Source: Candidatus Omnitrophota bacterium (GTDB lineage: Bacteria > Omnitrophota > Omnitrophia > Omnitrophales > JACROU01). Taken from it: 64,000 nt of DNA. Shown piece after piece: positions 7,609-51,484 of this stretch. Each line of letters opens with the position of its first letter. Positions within the stretch are counted from its first letter, which is position 1. The position numbers and the translations under genes are program-made. The stretch covers positions 186,001 to 250,000 of the forward strand of contig JAJDCD010000025.1 of assembly GCA_029261035.1 (NCBI GenBank), given 5' to 3'. The notes under the pieces were generated by a model, which was given only the letters and a program-made list of their open reading frames with translations, did no database searches and was not told the origin of the DNA.

Positions 7609-7923
7609 ATCGTCACACACGTGACGATACCACCTGAATCCTAAACCAACTTATCTGCACAATTAGGCATTTATCCCTGCAATTCTATAATCTTCCTGTA
7701 AACAATTAAATGTTTCGTTATTTAGACCAATAACGAAACTCATTACACCCAGGCAAAATAAGTGCTCGATGCACTTATTTTGGCAACCCTCCACACCCCC
7801 CACTTGTATTAAAACACTTCAGGAGGAGGAAGGAATATTCCCCGCCGCGAGTTCACAAAAGGGACAGTCCCCAATGGGGACAATCCCTTTTGTGCTGTCT
7901 GAGCGCTGGGGAATATTCCTTCC
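7609..7923. repeat. Composite hairpin element, copy 1 (long form)
   Basis: Non-coding gap between the thioesterase and VanZ genes. In order: palindrome ATCGTCAC/GTGACGAT (7609-7628); hairpin with 11-bp arms GTTTCGTTATT/AATAACGAAAC (7712-7739); hairpin with perfect arms AAAATAAGTGC/GCACTTATTTT around loop TCGAT (7755-7781); and a large hairpin with perfect 16-bp outer arms (7828-7843, 7908-7923) and inner arms CACAAAAGGGA/TCCCTTTTGTG (7854-7864, 7884-7894). The large hairpin's internal loop carries the conserved strings GCCGCGAGTT (7844-7853) and CTGTCTGAGCGCT (7895-7907). Its apex is GTCCCC/GGGGAC. Related copies lie at 26929, 28146 and 33301. Confidence 0.85.
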
Positions 7924-7947
7924 GACGACGAGCCCTTCACAACAACT

Positions 7948-8301
7948 CTAAACCTCTTTAAAGACCCGATATAACAACACTCCTGCAATAATCCCCAGAC
8001 AATCAAACACCCCATCCCAAAAACTCATCATTCTTGTTGGGACAAAGTACTGATGAACCTCATCAGATACAGCATAAAGCACTGCCAAAACAATCCCTAT
8101 AAAAATAAAGTCTGAAATCCAAGTTCTAAGAAAACGAAAAAATAAAATAGGCACAGGGATGTACAACAAAAAATGAAACAACTTGTCTATAAATGGAATA
8201 GGATTTTCAACAGGGGTAATAGGAACACTAGAAAGGTAAAACAAAAAGGACAAATAGCCCAACAGAGGAATTACTGAGAAAAAGAGATAAGAAAGATTCA
8301 A
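7948..8301 (-). CDS. VanZ-like membrane protein
   Basis: 117 residues with about four membrane segments. The VanZ signature is present: IPFIDKLFHFLLY (35-47) and SDEVHQYFVPTRMMSFWDGVFDCLG (79-103). VanZ homologues have no settled enzymatic role; the founding member gives teicoplanin resistance. Two bases separate it from the FmdB-type gene upstream, so the two are probably co-transcribed. The 3' end runs almost to the outer stem of composite element copy 1. Confidence 0.85.
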   Translation of the reverse strand: MNLSYLFFSVIPLLGYLSFLFYLSSVPITPVENPIPFIDKLFHFLLYIPVPILFFRFLRTWISDFIFIGIVLAVLYAVSDEVHQYFVPTRMMSFWDGVFDCLGIIAGVLLYRVFKEV

Positions 8302-8303
8302 GA

Positions 8304-8588
8304 TTAACTTTCTTGTTTTTTGGAACTAGTCCCACACGCAGAAGCTGAAGGCTCTACTTTCTTGCTTTTCAAACCTTGATCTTCTTTAGCTTTCTTTTGA
8401 TAATCTGAAGTTCTGTAATCTGTTTGGTAAAAACCTTTTCCTTTAAACAGAACTCCCCCACCCAAACTAATCAAACGCTTAACAGCGCCTTTACATTCCG
8501 AACATTCTGTAAGAGGTTCCGCAGTCATACTCTGGAATTGATCGAAACGAAAACCGCATTCTTGACACTCATATTCATATGTTGGCAA
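8304..8588 (-). CDS. FmdB-type putative regulatory zinc-ribbon protein
   Basis: 94 residues. The N-terminal domain MPTYEYECQECGFRF with CQEC (8-11) and CSEC (29-32) is the CxxC...CxxC zinc ribbon of the FmdB family. A GGG turn follows, then FKGKGFYQTDY (about 49-59), also conserved in the family. The Lys/Ser-rich tail is probably disordered. Function is not established for the family. It follows dnaJ by 20 bases and ends 2 bases before the VanZ gene, so it is probably the end of the hrcA-grpE-dnaJ transcript. Confidence 0.88.
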   Translation of the reverse strand: MPTYEYECQECGFRFDQFQSMTAEPLTECSECKGAVKRLISLGGGVLFKGKGFYQTDYRTSDYQKKAKEDQGLKSKKVEPSASACGTSSKKQES

Positions 8589-8608
8589 TTAAGTTCTCCT
8601 CAAATTCT

Positions 8609-9730
8609 TTACTTAAATGTATCTTTTAATTTATCCAAAAAGCCCTTAGAAACCTCTACATTTTCTTTTCTTTTTTGTGCTAATAAACAAATAATCTTTT
8701 TTTCTTCATCCGATAATTTTTTTGGAATTTCTATTTGGACACGAACCAACTCATCCCCACGACCTCCTCCATGCAAACGAGGTAAGCCCTTTTCTTTTAG
8801 ACGAAAAATTTTAGCACTTTGTGTTCCTGAAGGAATCTTAAGTTTAACTTTCCCTTCCAAAGAAGGTACTTCAACAGAGCCTCCAACACAGGCTACCGTA
8901 AACGGAATTTCCACATCACACAAAACATCATCATCCAACCGCTTAAATTGTGTATGTGGACGCACTTGAACTAAAACAAACAAATTACCTCTTGGACCGC
9001 CCCGTTCCCCCGCTTCACCTTCTCCAGATATCTTAAGCCTAGAACCCGATTCCATTCCAGGTGGGATTTTCACTTGAATCTTTCGTGTTTTTTCAGTTCT
9101 GCCATTTCCTCGGCACTGCTTACAAGGGTTTGAAATAATCTCTCCTGCACCTTGGCAACGACGGCAAGTTTGAGCAATACTAAAAAAACCTTGAGTCATT
9201 CTAACTTGACCGGCCCCTCTACAATCAGAACATGTCTCCGCTTTAGAACCCGGTTCTGCTCCGCTACCCGTACAAGCATCACAAGTTTCTAATCGAGGTA
9301 TATTCAAAGTTACTTTCTTCCCATGAAGAACTTCAGTCAATTCTATTTCTAAACTATATTGTAAATCAGAACCTCTAGCGACTCGAGACCCCCCGCCCCT
9401 TGCAGAGCCTCCGAAGAAATCTTCAAATAAATCACCAAAAATGTCCCCAAAATCTCTGAAAGAGTCCTGAAAACCTTCAAACCCTGAAAATCCTTGCCCA
9501 CCCATAGAGTGCCCAAATTGATCATACTGAGCTCTTTTACTCGAGTCACTCAGCACAGCATAGGCCTCTGCCGCTTCTTTAAAATTATTTTCCGCTTGTT
9601 GATCTCCTGGGTTTCTGTCAGGATGATATTTTAAAGCTAGCTTTCTATAAGCCTTCTTAATCTCACCTTCAGACGACTCCTTAGTAACTCCTAAAACTTG
9701 ATAGTAATCTCTCTTTTGTGTATTTGCCAT
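8609..9730 (-). CDS. dnaJ: Chaperone protein DnaJ
   Basis: 373 residues, full length. J domain with HPD at 36-38, Gly/Phe-rich linker (about 75-115), four CxxCxGxG zinc-finger repeats ([32 protein letters not shown]) and C-terminal substrate-binding domains. It delivers unfolded proteins to DnaK and stimulates DnaK's ATPase. It lies 4 bases after grpE in a heat-shock operon headed by hrcA; dnaK itself is not in this window. Confidence 0.98.
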
Positions 9731-9734
9731 TATC

Positions 9735-10313
9735 TTATTCCTTTATGTCAACGTCGTTTTGTTCTGGTTTTTTTGATACAACCACTTTCGAAGGCCTTAA
9801 CAGTTTTCCTTGAAATAAATAGCCCCCCTCAATCTCCTCTAGAATAGTTCCATCTTCTTTTTCAAGATTCTCCAGAGCAGTTAACGCTTCATGAAAGTGA
9901 GGATCAAAAGGCTTTTCTAAAACTTCTAACCTTTCCAAGCCGTGTGCCTTTAAAATATCACACATATGTTTTTTAATTATTTGAACTCCTTCTAAAATTG
10001 ACTCCTTTGAATCACTGTGTGTTTTAGCATGAACCAAAGCTCTATCTAAATGATCCAACACAGGAAGAAACTCTTGAATCAATCGTTCATTAGCAAACTT
10101 AAGAAATTCAGATTTTTCTTTTTCAAATCTTTTCTTTACATTTGCATACTCTGCCGCAGTCCGAAGCATCCCATCTTTTAAAGCTTCAAGCTCCTCTATC
10201 TTTTTAATCAACTCTTGGTATTCCGCTTCAGATATTTTTCTTTCTACATTTTCAAGTTTTTCTTTTCGCTTCTTTTCTGATTTTTCACTCTTTTTTTTGG
10301 CTTCCTCGCTCAT
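9735..10313 (-). CDS. grpE: Nucleotide exchange factor GrpE
   Basis: 192 residues. A charged N-terminal region is followed by a long coiled coil (about 25-95, with [37 protein letters not shown]) and a β-rich head containing FDPHFHEAL and the C-terminal [16 protein letters not shown] motif. It releases ADP from DnaK. Twelve bases after hrcA and 4 before dnaJ, it shares the CIRCE-controlled operon. Confidence 0.96.
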
Positions 10314-10325
10314 AAACTACCTCCC

Positions 10326-11357
10326 TTAAAATGTCTGTTTTAACAAGCTTTGCATTTCATCAGACATATATTCCACAACTGAAATAATATTTCCGTAATC
10401 CATTCGTTTTGGACCTAAAACACCCAAAAAACCAACCGACTGATCTTTAAGCTTATAACTTGATGTAATGAGAGAACAATCTAAAATAGAATTCAACTGA
10501 GTCTCATGACCAATCTGAACTTTCAAACCTTGTTCTGTTGTAATGTCTCTATCAAATAATTGCAGCAATGAAATTTTATCCTCAAAAAAATCGATGATTG
10601 TTCTCGTTTTATTCAAATCATCAAATTCCGGATTACTTAAAACATTGGCTGAACCTTCTAATGAAAATTTAAGCTCCTGCAACACAACCATACTTTCTTG
10701 AACAATTCTACAAGCCACATCCGATAATCGATATAAAGAATCTTTCCTAGATCCCAATTGACTCAATAGTTCTATCTCTAAATTAGAAAATAAGACTCCC
10801 TTCAATTCTTGATTTATAAAATTACAAATAGTTTTTAATTCTTCTGCTTCTAGAGATTCTTCTATTTCAAGAAACCCTTGCCATACCATACCACTAGCAG
10901 AAACCCAAACCACCAGCATACGCACATCATCTATTGGAACCAAATTAACCGACTTAAAATACTGCGACTCTAGTTTAGGATAAAATACCAAACTCGCTTG
11001 ATTCGTTAAACTAGACAAGATTTTAGAAGAATTCTGAATAACATCATCAATACTCTGAGCCTTCACACGAAACGAATCCATGACTTGTCCCGCCATATCT
11101 TGTGAGACCCGCCCTCTTCTCATTAAATGATCTACAAAGTAACGGTAGCCTAAATCCGTTGGCAACCTTCCTGCAGACGTATGAGGATGTGTAATATACC
11201 CTTTATCTTCTAGAACACCCAGTTCGTTCCTAATGGTCGCAGGAGAAACTCCCAAACTAGAACTTTGAGCAATCATTTGAGAACTGACTGGAATCACAGA
11301 ATGAATGTACTCTGTCACAACCAAAGATAAAATGTTCTTTTGTCTATCTGTTAGCAT
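10326..11357 (-). CDS. hrcA: Heat-inducible transcription repressor HrcA
   Basis: About 343 residues from the chosen ATG at 11357 (MLTDRQKNILSLVVTEYI). The N-terminal winged helix has the family sequence SSSLGVSPATIRNELGVLEDKGYITHPHTSAGRLPTDLGYRYFVD; the rest is the GAF-like effector and dimer domain. HrcA represses heat-shock genes by binding CIRCE, which lies 28 bases upstream of this start. An upstream in-frame ATG at 11381 is rejected because it lies inside the promoter/operator and upstream of the likely transcript start, while GGAGATTG precedes the chosen ATG. The gene is therefore likely to be self-regulated. Confidence 0.95.
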   Translation of the reverse strand: MLTDRQKNILSLVVTEYIHSVIPVSSQMIAQSSSLGVSPATIRNELGVLEDKGYITHPHTSAGRLPTDLGYRYFVDHLMRRGRVSQDMAGQVMDSFRVKAQSIDDVIQNSSKILSSLTNQASLVFYPKLESQYFKSVNLVPIDDVRMLVVWVSASGMVWQGFLEIEESLEAEELKTICNFINQELKGVLFSNLEIELLSQLGSRKDSLYRLSDVACRIVQESMVVLQELKFSLEGSANVLSNPEFDDLNKTRTIIDFFEDKISLLQLFDRDITTEQGLKVQIGHETQLNSILDCSLITSSYKLKDQSVGFLGVLGPKRMDYGNIISVVEYMSDEMQSLLKQTF

Positions 11358-11381
11358 CCACAATCTCCAAAAAAGGGGCAT

Positions 11382-11411
11382 ATTCTAGCACTCTTTAACT
11401 TTGAGTGCTAA
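11382..11411 (-). promoter_or_regulatory. CIRCE operator with overlapping extended -10 promoter for hrcA-grpE-dnaJ
   Basis: CTAGCACTC, nine bases, GAGTGCTAA at 11385-11411 is a CIRCE inverted repeat with one mismatch to the consensus TTAGCACTC-N9-GAGTGCTAA. On the minus strand its proximal half runs straight into TGCTAGAAT (11390 to 11382), an extended -10 element. Bound HrcA would cover the -10 region. The inferred transcript start is near 11375, about 18 bases before the hrcA ATG. Confidence 0.92.
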
Positions 11412-11486
11412 TAAAAAGTATTTAGAAATTAGCTTTTTCTATGGGAAATAGATAGATTAACACCCTAACCTCAGACAGGCTAAGGG

Positions 11487-12905
11487 CTACACAACAGAAG
11501 GGAATATATTCTGGAAGTCTGCTTTTTTTCTTCTAATTTGCTCTAATTGCTGTGTATCCACAAATACTTTCTCGCTCGAAAATGGAAGTTCAATTTCTAT
11601 TCCAGAAAAATCTTTAAATGAGTACGCCCTTAAAACCTTACCTATCAAACGTAATATAGTATCAACATAATAGTTTACATCCTCAGGGTTTTGAGTTCCC
11701 ACAACTTGAGGAAGTACGTCTGGCACAAGACCCTCTTCTAAAGCTGTCTTAAAAGAAAAATAACCTACTTGATCTAAAGCTTCTATAGATTGATCTGTTT
11801 TTTCCTCCGGAAGATTATAAACAATCTCAGGCTTCACCTTTCCCAAGGTATTCTCAATACGCTCATCCGAAAACATTAAATTTCCGGCACGTCGAGACAA
11901 TTGTTTTGCCAAAAATCCAGGAAAAGTTACTTCTTCTAATTCATACTTCGTAGCCCAGTTTTCAAAATTTTCATAAAGCTTTAATTCTTGAGGAAATTTA
12001 ATCTTCTGCAAATTCCCATCAGGTCCCTTAAAATCAAAAGGAATCACACGACTTATTTGATATTGATTTCCCTGCTGCACCAACACAAATAAAAACTCAG
12101 TTTCATATTCTGACGGAATTAGAAACTCATGCTCACTGTACTCTTCTTTAGGTTTAAATTCTTCTTTTAACTTCACATAAACCAAAGCCTGATTTTGTTT
12201 AAAAGCAATAGAACGTATATCAACAATTTCAGGACCCTCACTTTTTTTAAACTGAGACTCAAGTAAATAAGAATAAAAAAATGGGGAAATCATATTTAAA
12301 TTTGTTCCAGAAATAAAATATTTATCCAAAAGTTCAACAACCTGCAACTGATTCATATCTTTAAATAAGTGCTGAACAGGTCTATTCCATATAACAGCTC
12401 GATTAATCTTAAGATCATGAGAAACACGTTCTCTGTATTCACTTCTAGGAATATCCCAAAAACGAACTCTCTTAACATCATCCACATAGCCCAAGAGAAC
12501 AAGTTCTATTCCCGTCACTTCTGTATCAATGGCTTTAAGTAAATAAAAATCAAGATGAGAATCGGTACTCAACATCACTCTGGAAGTTGAAAAAAGAACA
12601 TCCTCCACCTTTTCCATCGCTTCAGGAGAAAATTGCAATAAATTTTCTATGTTTTTCACTTTTCCTGTAGCTAAAACATGTTCGAAGTCACTATGAAACA
12701 ATTGATTCAAAGGAAGAAAAACTCCTACAGTCTTTCCCTTAATAATCACCTCAACATCTTTAATATCATATTCTTTTAGGCAAATTTCTTTTATTGATTT
12801 TTTTACTTTTTCTTCAGGGTAAGTAGGTCCATCACAAGCAGAAAAAATAAGAGGTAGTAAAACAAGAAAACACGTTGTATATAAAAAAGTTCGGATATAA
12901 ACCAT
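11487..12905 (-). CDS. Predicted lipoprotein of unknown function
   Basis: About 472 residues from the ATG at 12905. I do not recognise the family. The N-terminus MVYIRTFLYTTCFLVLLPLIFSAC is a lipoprotein signal with Cys at about 24, although Phe at -3 is not ideal. The mature part is a mixed α/β protein without obvious repeats. An ATG at 12977 would lie before the terminator hairpin of the upstream gene, so the 12905 start, preceded by AAGG, is preferred. It lies directly downstream of the FtsH-like gene but behind that terminator, so it may have its own promoter or depend on read-through. Confidence 0.8.
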   Translation of the reverse strand: MVYIRTFLYTTCFLVLLPLIFSACDGPTYPEEKVKKSIKEICLKEYDIKDVEVIIKGKTVGVFLPLNQLFHSDFEHVLATGKVKNIENLLQFSPEAMEKVEDVLFSTSRVMLSTDSHLDFYLLKAIDTEVTGIELVLLGYVDDVKRVRFWDIPRSEYRERVSHDLKINRAVIWNRPVQHLFKDMNQLQVVELLDKYFISGTNLNMISPFFYSYLLESQFKKSEGPEIVDIRSIAFKQNQALVYVKLKEEFKPKEEYSEHEFLIPSEYETEFLFVLVQQGNQYQISRVIPFDFKGPDGNLQKIKFPQELKLYENFENWATKYELEEVTFPGFLAKQLSRRAGNLMFSDERIENTLGKVKPEIVYNLPEEKTDQSIEALDQVGYFSFKTALEEGLVPDVLPQVVGTQNPEDVNYYVDTILRLIGKVLRAYSFKDFSGIEIELPFSSEKVFVDTQQLEQIRRKKADFQNIFPSVV

Positions 12906-12931
12906 AAGTGCCTTAATTTCATTTAAAACAA

Positions 12932-12971
12932 AAAAGCCGTTTCTCCCTATAGATAGAGAAAAACGGCTTTT
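12932..12971 (-). terminator. Intrinsic terminator of the FtsH-like gene
   Basis: On the minus strand the arms AAAAGCCGTTT and AAACGGCTTTT form a stem with a CTC/GAG extension and a short loop, followed by a T-run, 20 bases after the FtsH-like stop codon. GC core plus U-tract make a typical rho-independent terminator. Confidence 0.85.
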
Positions 12972-12990
12972 AAACAATGATTAAAAAAAT

Positions 12991-14664
12991 CTAATTGTCT
13001 GAAGCATCTTCTCCAGAAAATGAATCTTTCTTCTCTTTACCCGCAGCAAATTCTCTCGGATTTGATTTGCCATATTCATTGAAAATTGCTTCAATTTCAT
13101 CAAAGTCTAATTCTTGACGACTCAAAAGCTCTTTAGCGAATCGTTCAAAAAGGTCATTTTCTTTCTTCAATAACTCTTCAACCTCTTTGATACATTCTTG
13201 AATAATTCTATTTGACGCTTCATTCAACTTCAGTTTAAAATCATTCGACAATTGAGCTTCAGGAATTGAGGTGAAATCTCCATACAAACCATCCCCACCC
13301 ATTCCAAGTCGCCACACCATATTATGGGCAATCGCAGTTGCTTGTTTAAAATCACTAGATACCCCTGTCGTTGTCGTTTGAAATTTTAATTTTTCAGCAA
13401 CATACCCACCCAGAGCCACTTTAATATTAGCAAGTAAAGTATGACTGTCATGACTGAAAAGTTCTTCCCTAGGAGTATGATGAACTACACCTAATGAAGA
13501 TTTTCTGGGAATAATGGATGCTTTAAAAACATCGTCCGTAGGGTGAAGTAAATAAGTGGTTATCAAATGACCTGTTTCATGATAAGCCGTCATTGTCTTC
13601 TCTCTATCCGTCATCTTAATCTTTTGTTTAACACCTAATTCAACACGTTCAATTGCTTCGGAAATATCTTTAGCAGAAACAACATCTTTATGGTTTCTTG
13701 TTGCAATCAAAGCAGATTCCTTAACAAGCATTTCGATGTCAGCAGGGCTTTTTCCCACAGCTTTACGAGCCAAGCGAGAAACATCAATGGACGCATCATG
13801 TTTCACTTTACCTAAATAATAACGAAACAATTTTTCACGTCCGTCTAAACTCGGCTTTGTGATATAAACCTTACGATCAAACCTTCCAGGTCTCAATAAC
13901 GCTTCGTCCATAGAATCTTCAGGAGCATTCGTAGCTCCAATCACAATAACATCTTCCAATTTAGAACCAAGACCATCCATTTCTACCAGTAATTGGTTCT
14001 GTGTATTATTAGATTCTTGTCCACCGAATTGATTAAAAGTTCTTTTATGTCCCATTGCATCTAACTCGTCAATAAATACAATGCAACCACCAAAACCATA
14101 AGCAAGAGTACGCGCTCTCTTAAATAGCTGACGTATTCGCGAAGAACCCACACCCACGAAAACTTCGTTAAATTCACTTGCTGCCATAGAAAGAAAAGGA
14201 AGGCCCGCTTCTGTAGCAATTGCTTTGGCTAAATAGGTTTTTCCACACCCAGGAGGTCCTAACATCAAAATACCTCTTAAGATTTTTCCCCCAATTTTTT
14301 TAAGGCGTGCATGATCCTTAATTAATTGAACCACTTCCCATGCTTCTTCTTTAGCTTCATCAATTCCAACAACATCAGAAAAACGCACGCTCACATCTTT
14401 CCCTTTAATTTCTTTTTTATCTGTCTTTGTCATTCCTCCACGGAGAACGACTTGATACATAAATACGAAAACAGCAGCATGGACCATACCCAAAAGTAAC
14501 GATAGTGGCATTTGTGCTAATGTAATGTTTCTATAAAAACTCTCCAGAGAATACATACCCCAAATAGATAGGCCAATCAGAACCAAAATTCCTGCAGAAA
14601 TTAAAATTTTAACTTTATGATTCATCCAATACATTTTTGCTCTTCTTAAGTATCTTTTTTCCAT
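12991..14664 (-). CDS. FtsH-like membrane AAA+ zinc metalloprotease with minimal periplasmic loop
   Basis: 557 residues against about 610-650 for typical FtsH. Two membrane segments (about 18-37 and 53-74) are separated by only some 15 residues, so the 75-residue periplasmic domain of classic FtsH is missing. The AAA+ module has Walker A GPPGCGKT (136-143), Walker B IVFIDE (195-200) and the second region of homology NAPEDSMDEALLRPGRFDRK (246-265). The protease module has HETGH (362-366) and the third zinc ligand Asp at about 438 in TTTGVSSDFKQAT. All catalytic residues are present. It probably degrades membrane or regulatory proteins from the cytoplasmic side; it may be a paralogue of a classic FtsH elsewhere. 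A strong AAGGAG precedes the start. Confidence 0.92.
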   Translation of the reverse strand: MEKRYLRRAKMYWMNHKVKILISAGILVLIGLSIWGMYSLESFYRNITLAQMPLSLLLGMVHAAVFVFMYQVVLRGGMTKTDKKEIKGKDVSVRFSDVVGIDEAKEEAWEVVQLIKDHARLKKIGGKILRGILMLGPPGCGKTYLAKAIATEAGLPFLSMAASEFNEVFVGVGSSRIRQLFKRARTLAYGFGGCIVFIDELDAMGHKRTFNQFGGQESNNTQNQLLVEMDGLGSKLEDVIVIGATNAPEDSMDEALLRPGRFDRKVYITKPSLDGREKLFRYYLGKVKHDASIDVSRLARKAVGKSPADIEMLVKESALIATRNHKDVVSAKDISEAIERVELGVKQKIKMTDREKTMTAYHETGHLITTYLLHPTDDVFKASIIPRKSSLGVVHHTPREELFSHDSHTLLANIKVALGGYVAEKLKFQTTTTGVSSDFKQATAIAHNMVWRLGMGGDGLYGDFTSIPEAQLSNDFKLKLNEASNRIIQECIKEVEELLKKENDLFERFAKELLSRQELDFDEIEAIFNEYGKSNPREFAAGKEKKDSFSGEDASDN

Positions 14665-14807
14665 ACAACTATCTCCTTGTCGAGGATACGACTTATCTCT
14701 CTAAAACCCTGTTTAGATCGCTAATCTTATAACCTTCTTACGTAAAATTATACGATCTGGATTTCAATTTATCGGCATATTATCTCTTAATCTAAATACA
14801 AAAAATA

Positions 14808-15101
14808 CTACCACTCGTCATAGTACTCATTCCACTCATCCCACTCAGAGCTTCCATCTTGAGATAAGGGACTATCTGTTTCAGAAAAAAAACTGGAAGT
14901 ATCCCCTACTTGATACTTAACCATGACAGGTTTCTCTTCTTCTTTTTTCACATCTGCATTCTTTTGATTTCCGCGGGCTTTTTCTATCCTTTTATGATAG
15001 GTCTGAGAATAAGCCTCCTCAGGAAGGATAAACCCCAATAGAAGGGCAAAAGAAATTATCAAAGTACTTAAGTAATTGATCTGAAATTTAATATTTAACA
15101 T
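14808..15101 (-). CDS. Small exported protein of unknown function
   Basis: About 97 residues from the ATG at 15101; a start at 15146 would add 15 residues ahead of the signal peptide. The N-terminus MLNIKFQINYLSTLIISFALLLGFILPEEAYS is a signal peptide with likely cleavage after AYS. The mature part has a basic stretch (HKRIEKARGNQK) and then a strongly acidic, aromatic C-terminus (EWDEWNEYYDEW). No family recognised. It stands between uvrA and the FtsH-like gene with about 140-230 bases on each side, so it may be transcribed alone. Confidence 0.55.
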   Translation of the reverse strand: MLNIKFQINYLSTLIISFALLLGFILPEEAYSQTYHKRIEKARGNQKNADVKKEEEKPVMVKYQVGDTSSFFSETDSPLSQDGSSEWDEWNEYYDEW

Positions 15102-15331
15102 ATTAATGCTCTTATCAGAATTTGTATTAAAATAGTTATATTGCAACTATCTCTAATTAACTATAGCACAATCTGTTACGAAACTCTAAAGAGTTAATCA
15201 ATACCAACAAATTAATACATTTAAAAAAGGTTTTAGGACTTAAAATTAGCATATTCTCTATCTATTGTCAAAACCTTATGTTTTCCTATTAGATGTTTAA
15301 AAATGACCTAAAATTCAATTGTTTCAGTAAA

Positions 15332-18169: not shown

Positions 18170-18218
18170 GCGTATGACCACCTATAGACTATGAAAATGG
18201 GCTAATAACAAACTTACT

Positions 18219-18224
18219 ATTATA
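18219..18224 (-). promoter_or_regulatory. Candidate -10 element upstream of uvrA
   Basis: TATAAT on the minus strand, about 50 bases upstream of the uvrA ATG. At 17 bases upstream there is only a weak TTTTCT. No LexA-type box was recognised nearby. Confidence 0.35.
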
Positions 18225-18314
18225 AGGGAAAAGAAGGTCAGAGAAAATAAGAAAAGTTTAAATAGCGGGGTAATTAGCTAATAATATGTGTTTTGTAGGT
18301 ATTCTTGGGAAGCA

Positions 18315-18713: not shown

Positions 18714-18747
18714 ATGTCATCTACCTCTTCCTCTAATAAATACGGTG

Positions 18748-23409: not shown

Positions 23410-23431
23410 CTATCTATGTGTGTGTAAAACG

Positions 23432-25015: not shown

Positions 25016-25182
25016 CGGGTATCCCTAAATGGGTTTTGCAAACACTATTAATGAATATTTAACTGCACATAATTGCGGTTATTTTAACCTAATCGTTATT
25101 TTTTGGCTATGAACAAGATTTAATAAAAGCATAAACTATTATAAATAAAGGACTTAGGATTTTGTGAAAATTTGACTTTTTC

Positions 25183-26004
25183 CTATTTCAGCCCTAAAAC
25201 GTCCTTCATCGTATAAAAGCCCGATTTTTTCGAAGACAAAAACTGAGCGGCTCTCAAAGCACCCGAAGCAAAAGAATCTCGACTTGAAGCTCGGTGTGAA
25301 ATTTCAATCGTTTCTCCCTGCGTTAAAAAACGAACGGTATGTTCCCCTACAATGTCTCCACCCCGAAGCGCATGAACACCAATACTTCCTTTTTTGCGTT
25401 CACCTGTAAAACCTTTTCTACCATAAACTCCCATTTCATCCAGATCCACTTCTCTGCCCGCAGCAACACGTTTTGCTAATTCCAAAGCAGTGCCACTGGG
25501 TGCGTCATTTTTAAAACGATGATGCGTCTCGATAATCTCAACATCATATTCTTCATCCAATAATTTCCCTAACAATTCAGAAAGTTGAAATACAATATTT
25601 ACACCCACACTCATATTCGGAGCCAAAACCACAGGAGTTTTTTTAGAAAGAGTTTGAACTTCTTCTAATTGAGCTTTTGAAAATCCTGTTGTTCCAATAA
25701 CAATTCCTTTTTTAAATCCAGCTAACTCTCGAATATGTTCCATAGTGACATCGGGATGAGTGAAATCAATAACAACTTCTGCATTCCCTATTTGTTCAGA
25801 AAGAGAATCTGAAACCTGTACCCCATTCGCACTAATACCTGAAATCAGGTTAGGTAACTGAACTCCAATTTGAGGATGCCCTTTTGCTTCAACGGCGCCT
25901 ACGATATCATACGGGCCTTGATCTGCTAGCTCAAGAATTCTCATACCCATTCTTCCGCAAGCTCCCGCAACGATAATTTTTGTATTTGAATTTTTTTGAC
26001 TCAT
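25183..26004 (-). CDS. dapB: 4-hydroxy-tetrahydrodipicolinate reductase
   Basis: 273 residues. Reduces the DapA product with NAD(P)H in the diaminopimelate/lysine pathway. N-terminal Rossmann motif VAGACGRMG, VIDFTHPD, IGTTGFS, APNMSVGVN, and the DapB signature ETHHRFKNDAPSGTALELAK with the catalytic His-His and Lys. Standard length. Last gene of the arg-lys-dap run, 12 bases after dapA. I found no terminator in the 167 bases downstream. Confidence 0.97.
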   Translation of the reverse strand: MSQKNSNTKIIVAGACGRMGMRILELADQGPYDIVGAVEAKGHPQIGVQLPNLISGISANGVQVSDSLSEQIGNAEVVIDFTHPDVTMEHIRELAGFKKGIVIGTTGFSKAQLEEVQTLSKKTPVVLAPNMSVGVNIVFQLSELLGKLLDEEYDVEIIETHHRFKNDAPSGTALELAKRVAAGREVDLDEMGVYGRKGFTGERKKGSIGVHALRGGDIVGEHTVRFLTQGETIEISHRASSRDSFASGALRAAQFLSSKKSGFYTMKDVLGLK

Positions 26005-26016
26005 AACACCATTCCT

Positions 26017-26907
26017 TTACGCTTTGGCTTTTTTCTTTCGTTTGATCAGACCATGCTTTGTTAACATACTTTTCAACTTTGCCTTATTTGCTTTTTCCAT
26101 CGTACATAATGGCAATCGAAACTCTTCTCTAACCATTCCCATTAAAGACAAAGCCGTCTTCACAGGGATTGGGTTCGTCTCTATAAATAAAGATTGAGCC
26201 AAGTCATAGATCTGATAATGAATCTGTTGAGCATCTTCAATATCACCATTCAAGTAAGAATGCACCAATCGAGACATTAAATTAGGAATAATATTAGCCA
26301 CCACCGAGATCACCCCTCTAGCACCTACAGAAAGAAGAGGTAAGGTCAACGCATCATCCCCTGAAATAACGGTAATGTCAGAAGATTGTATAATTTCTGT
26401 CGCTTGATTCAAACTCCCACTAGCCTCTTTAATGGCAACTACATTAGGAATTTTAGCCAGTTGAGTCACTGTCTTAACATCCATAGAAACACCCGTACGG
26501 CTTGGCACATTATATAAAACAAAAGGAATATCTACTTTTTTAGCCAAAAACTCAAAATGTTTATACAAACCTATTTGAGTGGGCTTATTATAATAAGGAG
26601 TAACCACAAGCACACCATCTGCCTTAATCTTCTTAGCATGCTTCACAAGCAGCACTGCTTCAGCCGTGTTATTAGACCCCGCCCCACAAATAACAGGAAC
26701 TTGTTTATTAACAACCTCTGTTACATAACTCAGAACATCGCAATGCTCTTTATGAGACATAGTGGCAGCCTCACCCGTCGTACCACAAGGCACAATTACA
26801 TCCGTTCCATTTTCTAAATGGAACTCCACTAACCTCTTCAAACCCGGAAAATCAATCTTTCCATTCTTAAGTGGTGTAACCAAAGCCACCATCGATCCCT
26901 GGAACAT
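26017..26907 (-). CDS. dapA: 4-hydroxy-tetrahydrodipicolinate synthase
   Basis: 296 residues. Condenses pyruvate with aspartate semialdehyde. Motifs: GTTGEAATMSHKEH, VTPYYNKPTQIGLYKHF, LYNVPSRTGV with the catalytic Tyr, and VVAIKEASG with the Schiff-base Lys near 161. A short basic tail (KRKKKAKA) is unusual. GGAGA precedes the ATG. A 370-base gap full of repeats separates it from dapF upstream, while dapB follows after 12 bases. Confidence 0.97.
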   Translation of the reverse strand: MFQGSMVALVTPLKNGKIDFPGLKRLVEFHLENGTDVIVPCGTTGEAATMSHKEHCDVLSYVTEVVNKQVPVICGAGSNNTAEAVLLVKHAKKIKADGVLVVTPYYNKPTQIGLYKHFEFLAKKVDIPFVLYNVPSRTGVSMDVKTVTQLAKIPNVVAIKEASGSLNQATEIIQSSDITVISGDDALTLPLLSVGARGVISVVANIIPNLMSRLVHSYLNGDIEDAQQIHYQIYDLAQSLFIETNPIPVKTALSLMGMVREEFRLPLCTMEKANKAKLKSMLTKHGLIKRKKKAKA

Positions 26908-26928
26908 AAATGTCTCCTTTGTTTATAG

Positions 26929-27264
26929 CTATCGGCCATCAGCTTTTAGCTTCTTCCGCCTGATGCGGATCTGCCAAGCTTTACGGCAGATAATAAATCC
27001 TAAACCAACTCTTATAAACAGCAAACGCCTTTATCCCTAACACTAAATTAACAGTGCAAATAACAACCACGTATCTCGTTATTAATACATAACGAGACAA
27101 CATTATACCTAGGAAACAAGAGCCCTCGATGGCGCTCTTGTTTCCAACACCTTCACACACTCCCAAAGCGAATAATAGAAGAGGTTAGGTAGCGTTCCAC
27201 GCCGCGAGTTGCGCAGCCCTAAAGGGCGAGCATGTCTGAGCGCCGGGGAACGCTACTCAACCTC
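26929..27264. repeat. Composite hairpin element, copy 2 (long form)
   Basis: Fills most of the 370-base gap between dapF and dapA. Starts with AGCTATCGGCCATCAGCTTTTAGCT-like sequence, then small GC hairpins, then AATCCTAAACCAACT, shared with copy 1 (7638-7652). A TCTCGTTAT/ATAACGAGA hairpin matches copy 1's position but with altered arms. Next a hairpin with AAACAAGAGC/GCTCTTGTTT arms around a TCGATG-containing loop (about 27112-27144). The large terminal hairpin has outer arms at 27181-27200 and 27245-27264 (three mismatches), internal-loop strings GCCGCGAGTT (27201-27210) and TGTCTGAGCGCC (27233-27244), and apex GCCCT/AGGGC. No coding sequence recognised. Confidence 0.8.
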
Positions 27265-27277
27265 CAACACATCTCAA

Positions 27278-28087
27278 CTAAGTAACAATCAACTCCCCAC
27301 GAAAAGAGATATGAGCTTCTCCTTCCATAAAAACTTCTTTAACATCATCCCCTTCAAGCTCAAAACAAATCTTCAAAACTTCTCCACCCGTAGTAAATAC
27401 ATTCACGGGAGACTTTACTTTATTTTGAAGCGCTGAAATAAGCGCACTTGCCGTAGATCCAGTACCACAAGCAAACGTTTCAGACTCAACACCTCTCTCG
27501 TAAGTTCTAACAGAAATATCATGAGGGCCTGTTACTTCAACAAAATTAACATTCACACCTAAAGGACTAAACTTCTCGTGAAAACGAATCGCTCCACCAA
27601 TTTCATTTACAGGAAAGTCTGAAAGACTCTCTGGAAAATGAATCACATGAGGAACTCCCGTATTAATAAAGGATAATTCTTTTTTATTTCCATCGACATC
27701 CAGTTCAAATGCCGCTTTATAATCTATAGGTTTCGTTAGCTGAACTTTAATTTTCTTTTCCGAAATCACCGCAGAAATAATACCTGCTCCTGTTTCAATT
27801 CTCATTTTATCTGGAAACTTTAAAAGCTCATGGGCAAACAAAGCAATACAACGAGAACCATTCCCACACATATCCGCTTCAGATCCATCCGCATTAATAA
27901 TTCTCATTTTAAAATCTGCATCATCTGATTTCTCTACCAACAACACGCCATCCGCTCCAACACCGAACTGACGTACACACACATGTTGAGCAAATTCATT
28001 CACATCGGTTATAAAGCTCTCTCTGTGGTCAATGACAACAAAATCATTACCCGATGCTTGCATTTTATAAAAAGTAATTGTATTCAT
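27278..28087 (-). CDS. dapF: Diaminopimelate epimerase
   Basis: About 269 residues from the ATG at 28087 (MNTITFYKMQASGNDFVVID), preceded by GGATAAG; a TTG four codons upstream is the alternative. Interconverts LL- and meso-diaminopimelate with two catalytic cysteines, found here in ADMCGNGSRC and FACGTGSTAS. It lies between lysA (upstream) and dapA (downstream), with a hairpin element in the gap on each side. Confidence 0.97.
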   Translation of the reverse strand: MNTITFYKMQASGNDFVVIDHRESFITDVNEFAQHVCVRQFGVGADGVLLVEKSDDADFKMRIINADGSEADMCGNGSRCIALFAHELLKFPDKMRIETGAGIISAVISEKKIKVQLTKPIDYKAAFELDVDGNKKELSFINTGVPHVIHFPESLSDFPVNEIGGAIRFHEKFSPLGVNVNFVEVTGPHDISVRTYERGVESETFACGTGSTASALISALQNKVKSPVNVFTTGGEVLKICFELEGDDVKEVFMEGEAHISFRGELIVT

Positions 28088-28145
28088 AATCTTATCCAAT
28101 CTGTAGCTATAAGCTCTCAGCTAATACCCCTTAGCTAAATCAACG

Positions 28146-28328
28146 ATCATCACACATGTGATGATGCTGTTACTTCACAAAACAAACGTGCTCGACGTGC
28201 TTTTGTTTTGACCCTCTATCACCACCCAAAAACAAATTCCAAAAAGGCCAGAGAAAATTCCCCGCCGCGAGTTCACAAAAGCGACTTCACTTTTGTGCTG
28301 TCTGAGCGCCGGAGAACTTTCTCTGGCC
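28146..28328. repeat. Composite hairpin element, copy 3 (short form)
   Basis: In the 256-base gap between lysA and dapF. Palindrome ATCATCACA/TGTGATGAT (28146-28165); a hairpin with CAAAACAAA/TTTTGTTTTG arms around GCTCGACG (inner arm degenerate); and the large hairpin with outer arms GGCCAGAGAAAATTCCCC (28246-28263) and GGAGAACTTTCTCTGGCC (28311-28328). Inner arms are CACAAAAG/CTTTTGTG (28274-28281, 28290-28297) and the internal-loop strings GCCGCGAGTT (28264-28273) and CTGTCTGAGCGCC (28298-28310). It lacks the middle module of copies 1 and 2. Confidence 0.85.
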
Positions 28329-28355
28329 ACCCAACTCATATTTACCCCAACATCC

Positions 28356-29615
28356 TTACTTCAAAAAAGAAGGGATTTTTTCTCCTCTAACTAAATCTTC
28401 TATGGTTTCCCTCTTACGAATCACTTCAAACTGATTCCCCTTCACCATAACCTCACACACACGAGGTCGGGTATTGTAATTACTTGCCATGGTAAAACCA
28501 TAAGCTCCAGCACTCATAATAGCCAGTAAATCTTTATCTTGAAAATCAGGCACTCTTCGATCTTTTGCAAAGAAATCTCCTGTTTCACAGATAGGGCCAA
28601 CAATATCCGACTTTATAGATTTCAGTTTTATATTCTTCATCACAGGCTTAACATCGTGGTAAGCTTCATACAAACTAGGTCTTATCAAGTCGTTCATTGC
28701 CCCATCCACAATAATAAAATTTTTAGCCTCTGTCTTTTTTGTATAAAGAACCTGTGTAACAAAAGCCCCTGCATTCCCTGCAATAAAACGTCCTGGTTCA
28801 AAAATAACCTTAAATTTCTTACTTTTAATCAAAGGTAAAATTTTAGAGGCGTATTCAGCCGCAGTTTGAGGCTTCTCATTATCATAAGTAATTCCAAGCC
28901 CACCCCCTAGATTTAAAAATTTTATTTTTATCCCCTGGTTCTCTAAGTTCGTTACAAAAATCATTACTTTTCTAAAAGCGCGGACAAAAGGTTCTCCCGT
29001 TGTAATTTGAGATCCAATATGAACATGGATACCACACATATTGACATAAGGATATCGATTCTTATCTAAGAATAGGGCTCGTGCCGTATCCATATCAATC
29101 CCAAACTTACTTTCTTTTTTTCCTGTTGTAATATAGTCATGCGTATTTGCAGATACGTCTGGATTTACACGAATTGAAATACTTGCTTTCTTTTTTAATT
29201 TAGTTGCGACACGATTAATAGCAACAACCTCAGCAGCGGACTCCACATTAAAAAGTAAAATCCCTTTCTGAATCGCAAATTTAATTTCTTCATCCGTCTT
29301 CCCAACTCCCGCATAAACTATCTTATTTGGCTTCACCCCTGCTTTTAATGCTCTGTACAGCTCTCCACCAGAAACAATATCAAGACCAGACCCTTTTTTA
29401 ACTAACGCTGTAAGCACAGCTATATTCGAGTTTGCTTTTGTCGAATAACAAATTAAAGGCTTAATGGATTTAAATGCTTTAGCCAACTCTGTGTAAGAGT
29501 CTGTAAAAGACTTATAACTATAAACATAAAAAGGAGTGCCTACTTTTTTTGCTATATCTTTAATAGCAACAGACTCACAATATAAATCATTTTTCTTATA
29601 ATCAAAATTACGCAC
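28356..29615 (-). CDS. lysA: Diaminopimelate decarboxylase
   Basis: 419 residues. PLP enzyme of fold type III that turns meso-diaminopimelate into lysine. The PLP Lys is in ICYSTKANSN, the Gly-rich phosphate loop in NLGGGLGI, EPGRFIAGNAG follows, and the catalytic Cys is in CETGDFFAKDR; all family motifs are present. Starts with GTG (MRNFDYKKND) behind AAAGGT. 24 bases after argH. A composite hairpin element follows before dapF. Confidence 0.97.
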   Translation of the reverse strand: MRNFDYKKNDLYCESVAIKDIAKKVGTPFYVYSYKSFTDSYTELAKAFKSIKPLICYSTKANSNIAVLTALVKKGSGLDIVSGGELYRALKAGVKPNKIVYAGVGKTDEEIKFAIQKGILLFNVESAAEVVAINRVATKLKKKASISIRVNPDVSANTHDYITTGKKESKFGIDMDTARALFLDKNRYPYVNMCGIHVHIGSQITTGEPFVRAFRKVMIFVTNLENQGIKIKFLNLGGGLGITYDNEKPQTAAEYASKILPLIKSKKFKVIFEPGRFIAGNAGAFVTQVLYTKKTEAKNFIIVDGAMNDLIRPSLYEAYHDVKPVMKNIKLKSIKSDIVGPICETGDFFAKDRRVPDFQDKDLLAIMSAGAYGFTMASNYNTRPRVCEVMVKGNQFEVIRKRETIEDLVRGEKIPSFLK

Positions 29616-29639
29616 TTGTTCTTACCTTTCTCAAAAAAT

Positions 29640-31040
29640 CTATTTTAATTTATTCTTCCACTTAACTAATTGCTTCTTAACACTAGAAGGAGAAGTACTT
29701 CCATGCGTTTTCTTTTTCGTGATAGAAACCGTTGGATTATAAATTTTATACACACTTTTATCTACTTTACTACACAGCTTCTGATAAACATCCAGTGAAA
29801 GTTGGTCCAATTCAAAACCCTCTGAGATTGCATATTGAACAATCTCCCCAGAAATTCGATGAGCATCAGAAAAAGACAACCCTTTACCCACTAAATAATC
29901 CAGCAAATCAGTTGCATACAAAAAACTATCCTCGGAACAGATCTGACAATTCAAATGGTTGACTTGAGTTGTTTTAATGGCTCCTTGTAAAACTTCCAGA
30001 GTTGCAAACGCCAAATGAAGCGCTGGAAACAAATCTTCCTTATCCTCTTGAAGATCTCGGTTATAACACAAAGGCAAACCTTTTTGATTCATCAACGCAG
30101 ACACCAAATGGCCCACAGCTTTACCGCTTCGCCCTCGAGTCAATTCAAATAAATCAGGGTTCTTTTTTTGCGGCATCAAACTGGAACCCGTAGCATAAGC
30201 ATCGTCCAAAGTAATAAAATCAAATTCGGTTGAATTCCACAAAATCATATCTTCGGATAATCGAGAAAGATGAATATACATTTGCGAAACCCCAGACAAC
30301 ACTTCAATCACATAGTCTCGATCTGCGGTCGCATCAATGCTATTGTCTGAAACTTTTGAAAAACCTAATAACTTCTTCAAATTATCTCGAGACAAAGAGT
30401 AAGTCGCACCACCTAAAGCTCCACTCCCTAAAGGCAGAACATCGATTCGCTTCAAAGCATCCTGAAAACGTTCCTTATCTCGCTCAAGCATTTCAACATA
30501 GGCTAAAATCGCATGAGACATAGAAACAACCTGCGCTCGTTGCAAGTGAGTATAACCGGGTATCGTTACCTTTTGATTCTTCTGTGCAAATTGCACAAGC
30601 ACTTTTTGAAAGTGAGTCACAGACTTAATCAGCTCCGGTATCACCTTTTTCAAATAGAGTCGCAATGCTGTTGTCACTTGATCATTCCGACTTCGACCTG
30701 TTCGAAGCTTCTTGGCTACAGCCCCTGCTGATTTTTCCAACTCAACCTGAATCAAAGAATGCACATCTTCATGTTCGTAACACAAATCTAAAAACTCTTT
30801 CGGCGTTTTATCGATTTCATAATACTTCATAAACCGTTTTTTGACAGAGGCTAGGCCTTTGAGCAATTTAGTCTTCTCTGCAGATTTCAAAATCTTAGCT
30901 TGGGCCAACACTTTTACCCACGCTTCATTCAGTTGAATATCTGCTTCAAAAAGCTCAAAATCGGTTGCTAAAGAATAAGAGAAAGCTTTTGCTTCTTCAG
31001 CTAATTCTGATTTAAATCTTCCGCCCCACATTTTTTTCAT
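29640..31040 (-). CDS. argH: Argininosuccinate lyase
   Basis: About 466 residues from the ATG at 31040 (MKKMWGGRFKSE, the usual argH start). Splits argininosuccinate into arginine and fumarate. The signature GSSLMPQKKNPD with catalytic Ser is present, along with TGRSRNDQVTT and the HxH-region GYTHLQRAQ. The start lies inside the end of argG: the two genes overlap by 29 bases in different frames, so translation is probably coupled. The tail is basic (KKKTHGSTSPSSVKKQLVKWKNKLK), normal for the family. Confidence 0.96.
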   Translation of the reverse strand: MKKMWGGRFKSELAEEAKAFSYSLATDFELFEADIQLNEAWVKVLAQAKILKSAEKTKLLKGLASVKKRFMKYYEIDKTPKEFLDLCYEHEDVHSLIQVELEKSAGAVAKKLRTGRSRNDQVTTALRLYLKKVIPELIKSVTHFQKVLVQFAQKNQKVTIPGYTHLQRAQVVSMSHAILAYVEMLERDKERFQDALKRIDVLPLGSGALGGATYSLSRDNLKKLLGFSKVSDNSIDATADRDYVIEVLSGVSQMYIHLSRLSEDMILWNSTEFDFITLDDAYATGSSLMPQKKNPDLFELTRGRSGKAVGHLVSALMNQKGLPLCYNRDLQEDKEDLFPALHLAFATLEVLQGAIKTTQVNHLNCQICSEDSFLYATDLLDYLVGKGLSFSDAHRISGEIVQYAISEGFELDQLSLDVYQKLCSKVDKSVYKIYNPTVSITKKKTHGSTSPSSVKKQLVKWKNKLK

Positions 31041-32202
31041 AAGGAAGTCCCCACAATTTAATAAAACCTTCTGCTGATTTATGATCAAACATATCTCCTT
31101 CAGAATATGTCGCTAACGCTTCAGAATACAAAGCATAAGGAGATTTGCGTCCTGCAATAATCACATGTCCTTGATCTAACTTTAACTTCACAATTCCCGT
31201 CACTCGATCTTGGTGCTTTGAAACAAATGCATCAAAAGCTTCCTTCAAAGGAGTAAACCAAAAACCATCATAAACTAAGTCCGCATACTTCTCGGAAATA
31301 AGCTTTTTATAATGGAGGTGCGCTCGGTCAAATACCAACGCTTCTAACTCTTCATGAGCTGTCATTAATACCGTTCCTGCCGGAGATTCATAAATCTCTC
31401 GACTTTTGATCCCCACCACTCGGTTTTCAATTAAATCGAGCCGACCCACACCATACTTCCCCGCTAAGTCGTTTAGCTTTTCAATCATGGCAACAAGAGG
31501 CATCTTCTTGCCATTTAAAGAAACCGGAATGCCTTTCTTAAATTCCAAAGTCACAGTAGTAGATTTTTTAGGAACCTCAGACAAAGCTCGAGTCATCACG
31601 TAAGCATCTTTAGGAGGCTCTACCCAAGGATCTTCTAGAACACCTGCTTCAATCGCAATACCCCAAATATTTTTATCAATCGAATAAATACTTTTTTTTG
31701 TAATATCAATTGGTATTTTATTTTGCTTTGCATAATCAATCTCTTCTTCACGTGTTTTGAATTCCCACTCCCGTAAAGGAGCAATGATTTTCAATTTAGA
31801 ATCCAAGCTTCGAATTCCCACTTCAAGCCGAACCTGGTCATTCCCTTTTCCAGTACAACCATGAGCTACATATTTTGCTTTTTCTTTTTGCGCAATCTGA
31901 ACCAAATGCTTAGAAATCAAAGGTCGGCCTAAAGAAGTCGCTAACAAATACTTCCCTTCATACTTAGCATGTGCCTGTAATGCAGGAAGAATAAAATCTT
32001 CAGCAAATTCCTTCTTAAGATCTTTAATATAAACTTTTGAAGCCCCTGATGCTTTTGCCTTTTTTTCTAATGCTTTTTTATCAGGCACTTCCCCTATAAA
32101 TGCAGAAAAGCAAATAACCTCCACATTATATTTATCTTTTAACCACTTGATTGCACATGAAGTATCTAATCCACCTGAGTAAGCTAAAATTACTTTATCC
32201 AT
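31012..32202 (-). CDS. argG: Argininosuccinate synthase
   Basis: 396 residues. Joins citrulline and aspartate with ATP. The P-loop AYSGGLDTS (8-16) typical of N-type ATP pyrophosphatases is present, as are HGCTGKGNDQVRLE and GRKSPYALYSEALATY near the C-terminus. Standard length. Follows argF after a 154-base gap holding an inverted repeat, and overlaps argH at its 3' end by 29 bases. Confidence 0.97.
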   Translation of the reverse strand: MDKVILAYSGGLDTSCAIKWLKDKYNVEVICFSAFIGEVPDKKALEKKAKASGASKVYIKDLKKEFAEDFILPALQAHAKYEGKYLLATSLGRPLISKHLVQIAQKEKAKYVAHGCTGKGNDQVRLEVGIRSLDSKLKIIAPLREWEFKTREEEIDYAKQNKIPIDITKKSIYSIDKNIWGIAIEAGVLEDPWVEPPKDAYVMTRALSEVPKKSTTVTLEFKKGIPVSLNGKKMPLVAMIEKLNDLAGKYGVGRLDLIENRVVGIKSREIYESPAGTVLMTAHEELEALVFDRAHLHYKKLISEKYADLVYDGFWFTPLKEAFDAFVSKHQDRVTGIVKLKLDQGHVIIAGRKSPYALYSEALATYSEGDMFDHKSAEGFIKLWGLPYEKNVGRKI

Positions 32203-32220
32203 AACTCTTCCTTTCTCAAT

Positions 32221-32359
32221 TAGCGGGTAGCGTTTAGCGTAGAGCGGATAGGTTCCTTAATCAAAAGATTCTCTTACCAAACCACCCTCTCCTAAGTTCA
32301 AGAAATCTAAAAGCTTTTGGCAAAGGATCTATACGCTAAACGCTATGCGCTATACGCTA
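32221..32359. repeat. Inverted repeat of TAGCGTTTAGCGTA type between argF and argG
   Basis: Left arm 32221-32251 (TAGCG, GG, TAGCGTTTAGCGTA, GAGCGGATAG) and right arm 32329-32359 (CTATACGCTAAACGCTATGC then GCTATACGCTA) are near-reverse complements around a spacer of about 77 bases. A single arm of the same family lies at 7562-7585. The right arm contains the argF stop codon (TAG, 32357-32359), so the insertion reaches the last codon of that gene. It looks like a small non-autonomous element; no gene inside. Confidence 0.75.
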
Positions 32360-33268
32360 TTTCTTCAACAACCACAAAAGAATCGCTTTTTCTGCATGTA
32401 ATCGATTCTCTGCTTGATCAAAAACAATCGATTTGCTACTTTCCATAATCTCATCCGTTATTTCTTCATCCCGATGAGCCGGCAAACAATGCATAATAAA
32501 AGGAGGCTTTTTTGCTTTAGAGAGTAACTTCTTATTTAGTTGAAACCCTTTAAACTCCGAAAGCTTTTTCTTCTTCAGTTTTTCCTCACCCATACTCACC
32601 CAAACATCGGTATAAACAAAGTCTGCAAATTTAATAGCGCCTTCTGGAGTCGTTTTCTGCTGAATCAAAGCCCCCGATTTTTTAGCTAAAGCCATAATTT
32701 CTTTTAAATCCTTTGGATTTACTTGATGCTTTTTTGGGCAAACAAAATGAAAATGGCCGCCAATTTTAGCAAATAAATAAAGCAACGACGTTAGTACATT
32801 ATTTCCGTCACCCACATAAGCAACAATAGCCTGTTTCTTTTTACTCTTTTCTATCACCGTTAAATAGTCTGCCAAAGCCTGACACGGATGAGACCAATCA
32901 CTTAAACCATTAATCACAGGCACTTTCGAATAGTCCGAAAAATCCTCAATCGTTTTATGCTTAAATGTTCGAAGCACAATAGCATCCCAATATCGAGATA
33001 AAACTCGCGCCTCATCATGGAGAGCTTCTCGAGAACCCAGCTTAATATCGTGAGGACCTAAATACTGAGCTTCTCCACCCATCTGAGTCATAGCAACCTG
33101 AAAAGACACACGCGTCCGAGTCGAAGGCTTTTCAAAAACCAACCCCAAAGACTTTCCTTCTAAATGTCTAAGGTATTTCTTAGGGTGCTTCTTAACCTCA
33201 ACCGCAATCCCAATAATATCCAAAATATCCTTCTTAGATAAATCCTTAATCCCCAACAAATGCTTCAT
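32357..33268 (-). CDS. argF: Ornithine carbamoyltransferase
   Basis: About 303 residues from the ATG at 33268, preceded by GAGGGG; the codon before it is TTG. Makes citrulline from ornithine and carbamoyl phosphate. The carbamoyl-phosphate loop STRTR (about 49-53), HPCQALADYLT and HCLPAHRDEEI are all present, the last two distinguishing it from aspartate carbamoyltransferase. The stop TAG lies inside the right arm of an inverted repeat. The gap from argD upstream holds composite element copy 4. Confidence 0.96.
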   Translation of the reverse strand: MKHLLGIKDLSKKDILDIIGIAVEVKKHPKKYLRHLEGKSLGLVFEKPSTRTRVSFQVAMTQMGGEAQYLGPHDIKLGSREALHDEARVLSRYWDAIVLRTFKHKTIEDFSDYSKVPVINGLSDWSHPCQALADYLTVIEKSKKKQAIVAYVGDGNNVLTSLLYLFAKIGGHFHFVCPKKHQVNPKDLKEIMALAKKSGALIQQKTTPEGAIKFADFVYTDVWVSMGEEKLKKKKLSEFKGFQLNKKLLSKAKKPPFIMHCLPAHRDEEITDEIMESSKSIVFDQAENRLHAEKAILLWLLKK

Positions 33269-33300
33269 CAAATCCCCTCTTCTCTACAGCTTCTATAACG

Positions 33301-33486
33301 ATCGTCACACATGTGACGATACTGCCAACTTCACAAAAGAAAGTTACTCGATGTAACTTTCTTTTGCCCCTCCACACACACCACCAAGCTTAGTAACTTA
33401 AAGGCCAGGGATCGTTCCCCGCCGCGAGTTCACAAAAATAGCTTCACAATTTTTGTGCTGTCTGAGCGCCGGGGAACGATCCCTGG
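33301..33486. repeat. Composite hairpin element, copy 4 (short form, best preserved)
   Basis: In the 236-base gap between argD and argF. Palindrome ATCGTCACA/TGTGACGAT (33301-33320). Hairpin with perfect 14-bp arms CAAAAGAAAGTTAC/GTAACTTTCTTTTG around TCGAT (33334-33366). Large hairpin with perfect 16-bp outer arms CCAGGGATCGTTCCCC (33405-33420) and GGGGAACGATCCCTGG (33471-33486), inner arms CACAAAAAT/ATTTTTGTG (33431-33439, 33449-33457), and internal-loop strings GCCGCGAGTT (33421-33430) and CTGTCTGAGCGCC (33458-33470). Arms differ from copies 1-3 while pairing is kept. Confidence 0.88.
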
Positions 33487-33507
33487 TCTCCAACCCACTC
33501 CTAAACC

Positions 33508-48722: not shown

Positions 48723-48767
48723 GAATCAATAACCCTTATGAGTATAAGTATTAATTAGGAAGGACTC

Positions 48768-49225: not shown

Positions 49226-49289
49226 AGACAAATAGATAGATATTCTGATTAAATTAAATAGGAATTAACAAACAAACTTACACTGCCCA

Positions 49290-51474: not shown

Positions 51475-51484
51475 ACCTTCTTTT

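Follow-up and report, generated by a model that had tools for sequence, protein, structure and literature searches.

An interspersed palindromic repeat at gene ends of a Candidatus Omnitrophota genome, defined by a fixed internal loop between free stems

A 64,000-nucleotide stretch of a Candidatus Omnitrophota genome (assembly GCA_029261035.1, contig JAJDCD010000025.1, positions 186,001 to 250,000), referred to here as the window, carries four copies of a large hairpin, termed hairpin A, whose stems differ from copy to copy around an unchanging internal loop. What is this hairpin, and what maintains it? The initial annotation proposed a repetitive extragenic palindromic (REP)-like element moved by a Y1 transposase, a conserved RNA motif, or both. 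Hairpin A is best read here as a palindromic repeat, interspersed through the genome, whose identity lies in its structure and not in its sequence. There is about an even chance that it represents an undescribed gene-end repeat resembling bacterial interspersed mosaic elements (BIMEs), which is spread by a putative factor and has its arms rewritten together. All four copies were present with both strings where the initial annotation had placed them. They were found again by a covariance model (R1) trained on 34 aligned genome copies, with E-values of 2e-16 to 5e-25, which are rough and come from a model whose training set includes the four.

7826..7925, plus strand: hairpin A copy 1; strings at 7844-7853 and 7896-7906, inner loop with the REP-like palindrome GGGACAGTCCCC...GGGGACAATCCC
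27183..27262, plus strand: hairpin A copy 2; inner module GCGCAGCCC/GGGCGAGCA
28246..28328, plus strand: hairpin A copy 3
33403..33488, plus strand: hairpin A copy 4

Read along the strand that carries the two strings (the string strand), hairpin A consists of an outer arm, a short flanking stem, GCGAGTT, an inner stem with its loop, TGTYTGAGC, and the second outer arm. The invariant part is the asymmetric internal loop formed by the strand pair GCGAGTT/TGTYTGAGC. These segments of the strings first quoted as fixed held throughout, but the adjoining GCC..CGC, which forms the short flanking stem here, is replaced by compensated variants in other copies. The outer arms (17-20 bp) and the inner stem and loop are free in sequence, and the outer arms of all four window copies differ and yet pair over this length, as had been described. 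At least two types of inner part exist, one with CACAAAA.../...TTTTGTG and one with GCGCAG.../...CGAGCA; the CACAAAA inner arm earlier attributed to the copy at 27183 was a misreading of the module listed above. As only the internal loop is kept and both stems are free, sequence searches miss hairpin A. Among the papers listed by a literature search with sequence strings, none was relevant. The combination of a fixed loop with free stems is unlike most interspersed palindromes, which are known by sequence. A variant was also seen at two loci (L338, L340), where GACCCGAAGGGTC and TGCCTGCCGGTAGGCA hairpins take the place of the AACTCGCGGC half.

The covariation test supported the proposal that the hairpin is maintained through paired changes. 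Across 22 stem pairs in the 34 aligned copies, standard pairs occupied 95.9% of the cells, 17 of the 22 pairs varied on both sides, and the changed cells were two-sided in 244 cases and one-sided in 12. The covariation score was 0.831, against 0.213 in shuffled alignments and 0.10-0.19 (at most 0.194) in slid alignments, which served as controls. Watson-Crick pairs filled 922 of the 988 cells in the outer arms. G-T cells were about equally rare on the two strands of the outer stem in the host genome (20 versus 17 of 988 cells), and G-U pairs, at ∼2% of the outer stem, were not in excess on the sense strand; hence, no RNA strand is singled out. In other genomes, 74 G-T cells lay on the string strand and 32 on the opposite one, much of the surplus being due to one position. 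The inference of selection and not just common descent, drawn from these changes in the initial annotation, was half right: the paired changes stand, but because they nearly always hit both arms together and whole blocks are swapped, template switching or exchange between copies has to be considered besides selection. Joint arm changes can arise by template switching, a mechanism proposed in the literature for RNA genes (PMC8794818). Hairpin A resembles hairpins maintained in that manner in that its arms change jointly without single-sided intermediates, and differs from them in that the mechanism would act here on an interspersed repeat (PMC8794818).

The host genome (2.7 Mb, 26 contigs) contains 32 exact matches to the string pair, compared with none for a reversed control, which is far more than chance would give. 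The covariance-model search suggested in the initial annotation yielded 56 copies in this genome and copies in 8 of 39 relatives, while exact strings occurred in 7 of 285 Omnitrophota genomes. Among the matches listed in a scan of named genomes for the string pair, a taxon list that is incomplete, Olsenella and its relatives carry 5-15 copies per genome, Eisenbacteria 6 and one gammaproteobacterium 6; in the phylum of the latter, one other genome among 398 gave a single match. Cultured carriers include Olsenella sp. An270 and Thermophilibacter gallinarum. Single matches in Halogranum and Citrifermentans lay within predicted genes and were set aside as chance-like. The distribution of hairpin A is thus very patchy, with the same loop in unrelated bacteria, and a loop common to unrelated phyla predicts a partner protein.

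Where the copies lie relative to genes bears directly on their function. All 38 classifiable copies of the host genome are positioned past the stop codon of a gene and carry the strings on its antisense strand (25:0 and 13:0), mostly 9-38 nt and usually ∼20 nt from stop codon to arm, and no sense-orientation copy was found among them. The bias was 13:4 in relatives and 27:5 in other genomes, where copies up to 40 nt from a stop codon were counted; gene calls for these counts were made with our own simple caller, which is crude where genomes are GC-rich. The uniform orientation and intergenic placement first noted in the window were borne out there and among the classifiable copies of the genome. 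The description of the copies as lying in gaps and antisense to nothing held for the gaps only, as the strings are opposite a minus-strand gene ∼20 nt past its stop codon. The preceding genes are ordinary (dapF, lysA-like, argD-like, and others). Downstream of hairpin A in the gene direction, the copies of the host genome are followed by a G-rich linker, then by a terminator-like hairpin B with a constant ATCGA loop and a variable stem, and often by a palindrome C.

7948..8301, minus strand: VanZ-like gene, which in the gene direction ends right before copy 1
7754..7782, minus strand: hairpin B of copy 1; loop ATCGA fixed, stem variable, terminator-like
7712..7739, no strand: palindrome C of copy 1 (GTTTCGTTATT...AATAACGAAAC)
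27278..28099, minus strand: dapF (diaminopimelate epimerase), ending right before copy 2
27112..27145, minus strand: hairpin B of copy 2
27074..27097, no strand: palindrome C variant of copy 2 (TCTCGTTAT...ATAACGAGA)
28356..29615, minus strand: Orn/DAP/Arg decarboxylase-family gene (lysA-like), ending right before copy 3
28178..28210, minus strand: hairpin B of copy 3
33508..34728, minus strand: class-III aminotransferase (argD-like), ending right before copy 4
33334..33366, minus strand: hairpin B of copy 4

No B-type hairpin lacking A was seen in the window in a strict-score scan that detected two of the four known B hairpins. A composite at another locus (L341) lacks A, having lost it; A is therefore dispensable there. 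An open reading frame within hairpin B was considered and rejected, as it is not kept. A TATAAC-like stretch before A, considered by eye as an antisense promoter, was present in some copies and inconsistent. Orientation relative to the replication strand was near-uniform per contig and added nothing, as sampled genes show a matching strand bias on most such contigs.

The main alternative, which this placement fits, is a 3′ untranslated region RNA element that would be terminator-like or protect the 3′ end, act in the upstream gene's transcript, and have its loop read by an RNA-binding protein. Besides the orientation bias and the narrow distance to the stop codon, the terminator-like hairpin B that follows and RNA folding, which mildly favors the sense strand (26 of 34 copies), are consistent with it. 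It is opposed by the low G-U content without sense-strand excess, by the patchy distribution, and by a scan of hairpin A against Rfam 15, which gave nothing at the gathering score and only chance-level matches with E up to 1. The conserved RNA motif of the initial annotation is accordingly kept as a possible though doubtful explanation, the parity of G-T and G-U cells favoring neither strand. Ordinary intrinsic terminators, with strings that are common by descent or chance, arms under normal selection and no special factor, would occupy the same site past the stop codon and, including those with paired DNA uptake sequences (PMC1852404), likewise have gene-specific stems. In contrast to them, hairpin A has a fixed asymmetric loop whose two strands do not form an inverted repeat, most of its stems are without a U-tract directly after them (in the host genome the terminator-like hairpin B follows, however), and the identical two-strand loop recurs in unrelated phyla and, circularly permuted, in viral contigs (see below). 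Such an explanation is improbable.

To follow the element at orthologous gene ends, its presence and absence were compared in Olsenella and its family. Behind nrdD, about half of 30 genomes or species of the Olsenella family carry hairpin A or a looser variant (only six of the loci reach E 0.01 with the model, the others being assigned by eye), and most of the others have an ordinary terminator-like hairpin. One locus of this set (L351) has a loosely similar core within the stem and TTTTTT after it. Both observations, i.e., hairpin A at a site where relatives have a terminator-like hairpin and a related core before a T-tract, fit the RNA element. Behind glnA (31 related genomes, 30 read), hairpin A was absent, single, present as an inverted-pair doublet, inverted, or present as the recombined product of two copies, and the inverted copies argue against an element acting in the upstream transcript. 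Several glnA spacers contained other palindromic repeats (GTAGGAGCGAAGCGACG..., GTCGCGACGCCCCCGC... at L383, L387, L389, L392, L395, L397, L398, and L401), and since different repeats occupy it in Olsenella-group species, hairpin repeats seem to have a hot spot in this spacer. The string CGAGAAGG/CCTTCTCG, widespread in these genomes inside and outside hairpin arms (spacers L372-L401), is perhaps a separate signal.

At orthologous sites, the arms differ block-wise with pairing preserved. In the host genome, arm similarity was 0.593 for neighbors within 25 kb and 0.473 for distant copies, a difference reached in 0 of 2000 permutations. Taken together, the variation at orthologous sites, the block-wise arm changes, the similarity of neighbors, and the G-T parity make hairpin A look like a spreading or exchanged repeat with arms copied from each other.

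Such a repeat invites comparison with known mobile palindromes. REP/BIME sequences with their RAYT (TnpA-REP) proteins are short imperfect palindromes at gene ends that form inverted pairs, conserve a stem mismatch, and are patchy across phyla (PMC8266576, PMC3733652, PMC2817692). In hairpin A, the BIME-like habit was found in all of its parts, i.e., gene-end spacers, inverted pairs, and presence/absence at orthologous sites, whereas its stems are free, the internal loop alone is fixed, and its orientation to the upstream gene is near-strict in the host genome. The proposal that hairpin A is itself a REP, or a REP doublet forming a hairpin (REPIN), moved by a genome-encoded Y1 (RAYT) transposase was examined at the Y1 genes. 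The host genome has four Y1_Tnp genes (L153, L154, L155, and L156), each with a palindrome of its own, all different: GTGACTGTCAC, GGGCCCGGGCC, AAAGTGCCAGGCCTTTCA, and GGGACAGTCCCC. The string pair, expected in the initial annotation at the flanks of such a gene, was absent from all 29 Y1 loci checked, 4 in the host genome and 25 in other carriers. Six carriers of hairpin A (G006, G286, G292, G293, G294, and G295), some of them incomplete drafts, gave no Y1_Tnp match. REPs are recognized by a tag, GTAG or CGTC, and by a RAYT gene (PMC3733652, PMC8266576); among 52 copies of hairpin A, the stem foot had GTAG in none and CGTC in 6. The stem sequence is also not conserved within the genome. The inner loops of many A copies do contain the same palindromes (GTGACAGTCAC, GGGACAGTCCC) as the flanks of the host's Y1 genes, as in the window at 7859-7889 (the copy at 7828) and at L339, L436-L442, and L448. 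They sit there as passengers, as if REPs were nested in the repeat. Despite the BIME-like sites, the inverted pairs, the fixed-mismatch hairpins, the presence of Y1 genes, and the palindromes of these genes in the inner loops, mobilization by a Y1 transposase is hence largely refuted and very improbable.

Integron attC sites are structure-defined, strand-specific hairpins behind stop codons, with core boxes and in arrays. Hairpin A shares with them stems that vary but stay self-complementary, unpaired bases that are conserved, the position past a stop codon, and a structured form on the antisense strand, and could on these grounds be a recombination site read as a folded bottom strand. However, attC core boxes were not seen (by eye only), the copies are scattered behind housekeeping genes and not arrayed, and no search for integrase (intI) was made. 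There is little reason to expect that hairpin A is such a site.

The string strand itself has features of folded DNA. Tandem sheared G.A pairs (CGAG/TGAG) could arise in it, and in some copies of other genomes the inner stem is capped by the tips GCGAAGC or GCGCAGC, which are very stable DNA mini-hairpins. Owing to these pairs and tips, folded single-stranded DNA would be the likelier ligand of a recognizing protein; for an RNA element in the upstream transcript, the G.A pairs would be on the wrong, antisense strand. A kink-turn was considered by eye and rejected: the tandem G.A pairs agree with it, but the 3-nt bulge is at odds with it.

Viral contigs contain this loop in a permuted form, in which the other helix is closed, TGTYTGAGCGMAGCGAGTT tips the free arms, and a second, T/A-rich hairpin follows. 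Seven IMG/VR loci (L283, L289, L290, L303, L312, L327, and L333) show this arrangement in the spacers of phage-like contigs: a long imperfect palindrome is tipped by TGTTTGAGCGMAGCGAGTT, and behind it stands a T/A-rich hairpin, for example GGTTCTTTCTTGC-ACAA-GCAAGAAAGAAC. No Rfam match was obtained for the permuted form in the five loci scanned; the permuted composite had no match in a plasmid search and, in a phage search, matched only phage coding genes. The non-permuted pattern with full strings was not found in viral contigs, and matches to a shorter non-permuted pattern, mostly without arms, were chance-like. A two-strand loop that would function in both orders is as expected of a structural recognition site.

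These observations can be brought together in the BIME-like repeat proposed at the outset. A putative protein would recognize the fixed loop by binding the folded strand, probably as single-stranded DNA, and copies would spread or be exchanged between gene ends. Arm identity would be maintained since one arm is templated from the other by template switching, possibly assisted by selection for a gene-end hairpin. Several points weigh against this proposal. No mobilizing enzyme was found, integrase having been left out of the search. Random insertion would leave a weaker orientation bias past stop codons than the one observed, and, with no sense copy found in the host genome, an RNA or terminator function fits better. 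Some sites have long been kept, at the same genes in several species, and the evidence for empty sites stems from species other than that of the window. It is only a tentative extension of the proposal that hairpin A belongs to a new class of gene-end elements read through a two-strand loop, also when permuted, by a horizontally spread putative protein acting on folded single-stranded DNA (or a transcript 3′ end), with stems that are template-switched. The many copies and the block-wise arm changes at orthologous gene ends offer a natural test of hairpin birth and upkeep, in which template switching can be set against selection. As a side observation, in positions 48001-64000 of the window, where no hairpin A copy is present, GC skew weakens from -0.24 to roughly -0.09 as the genes turn to the plus strand.

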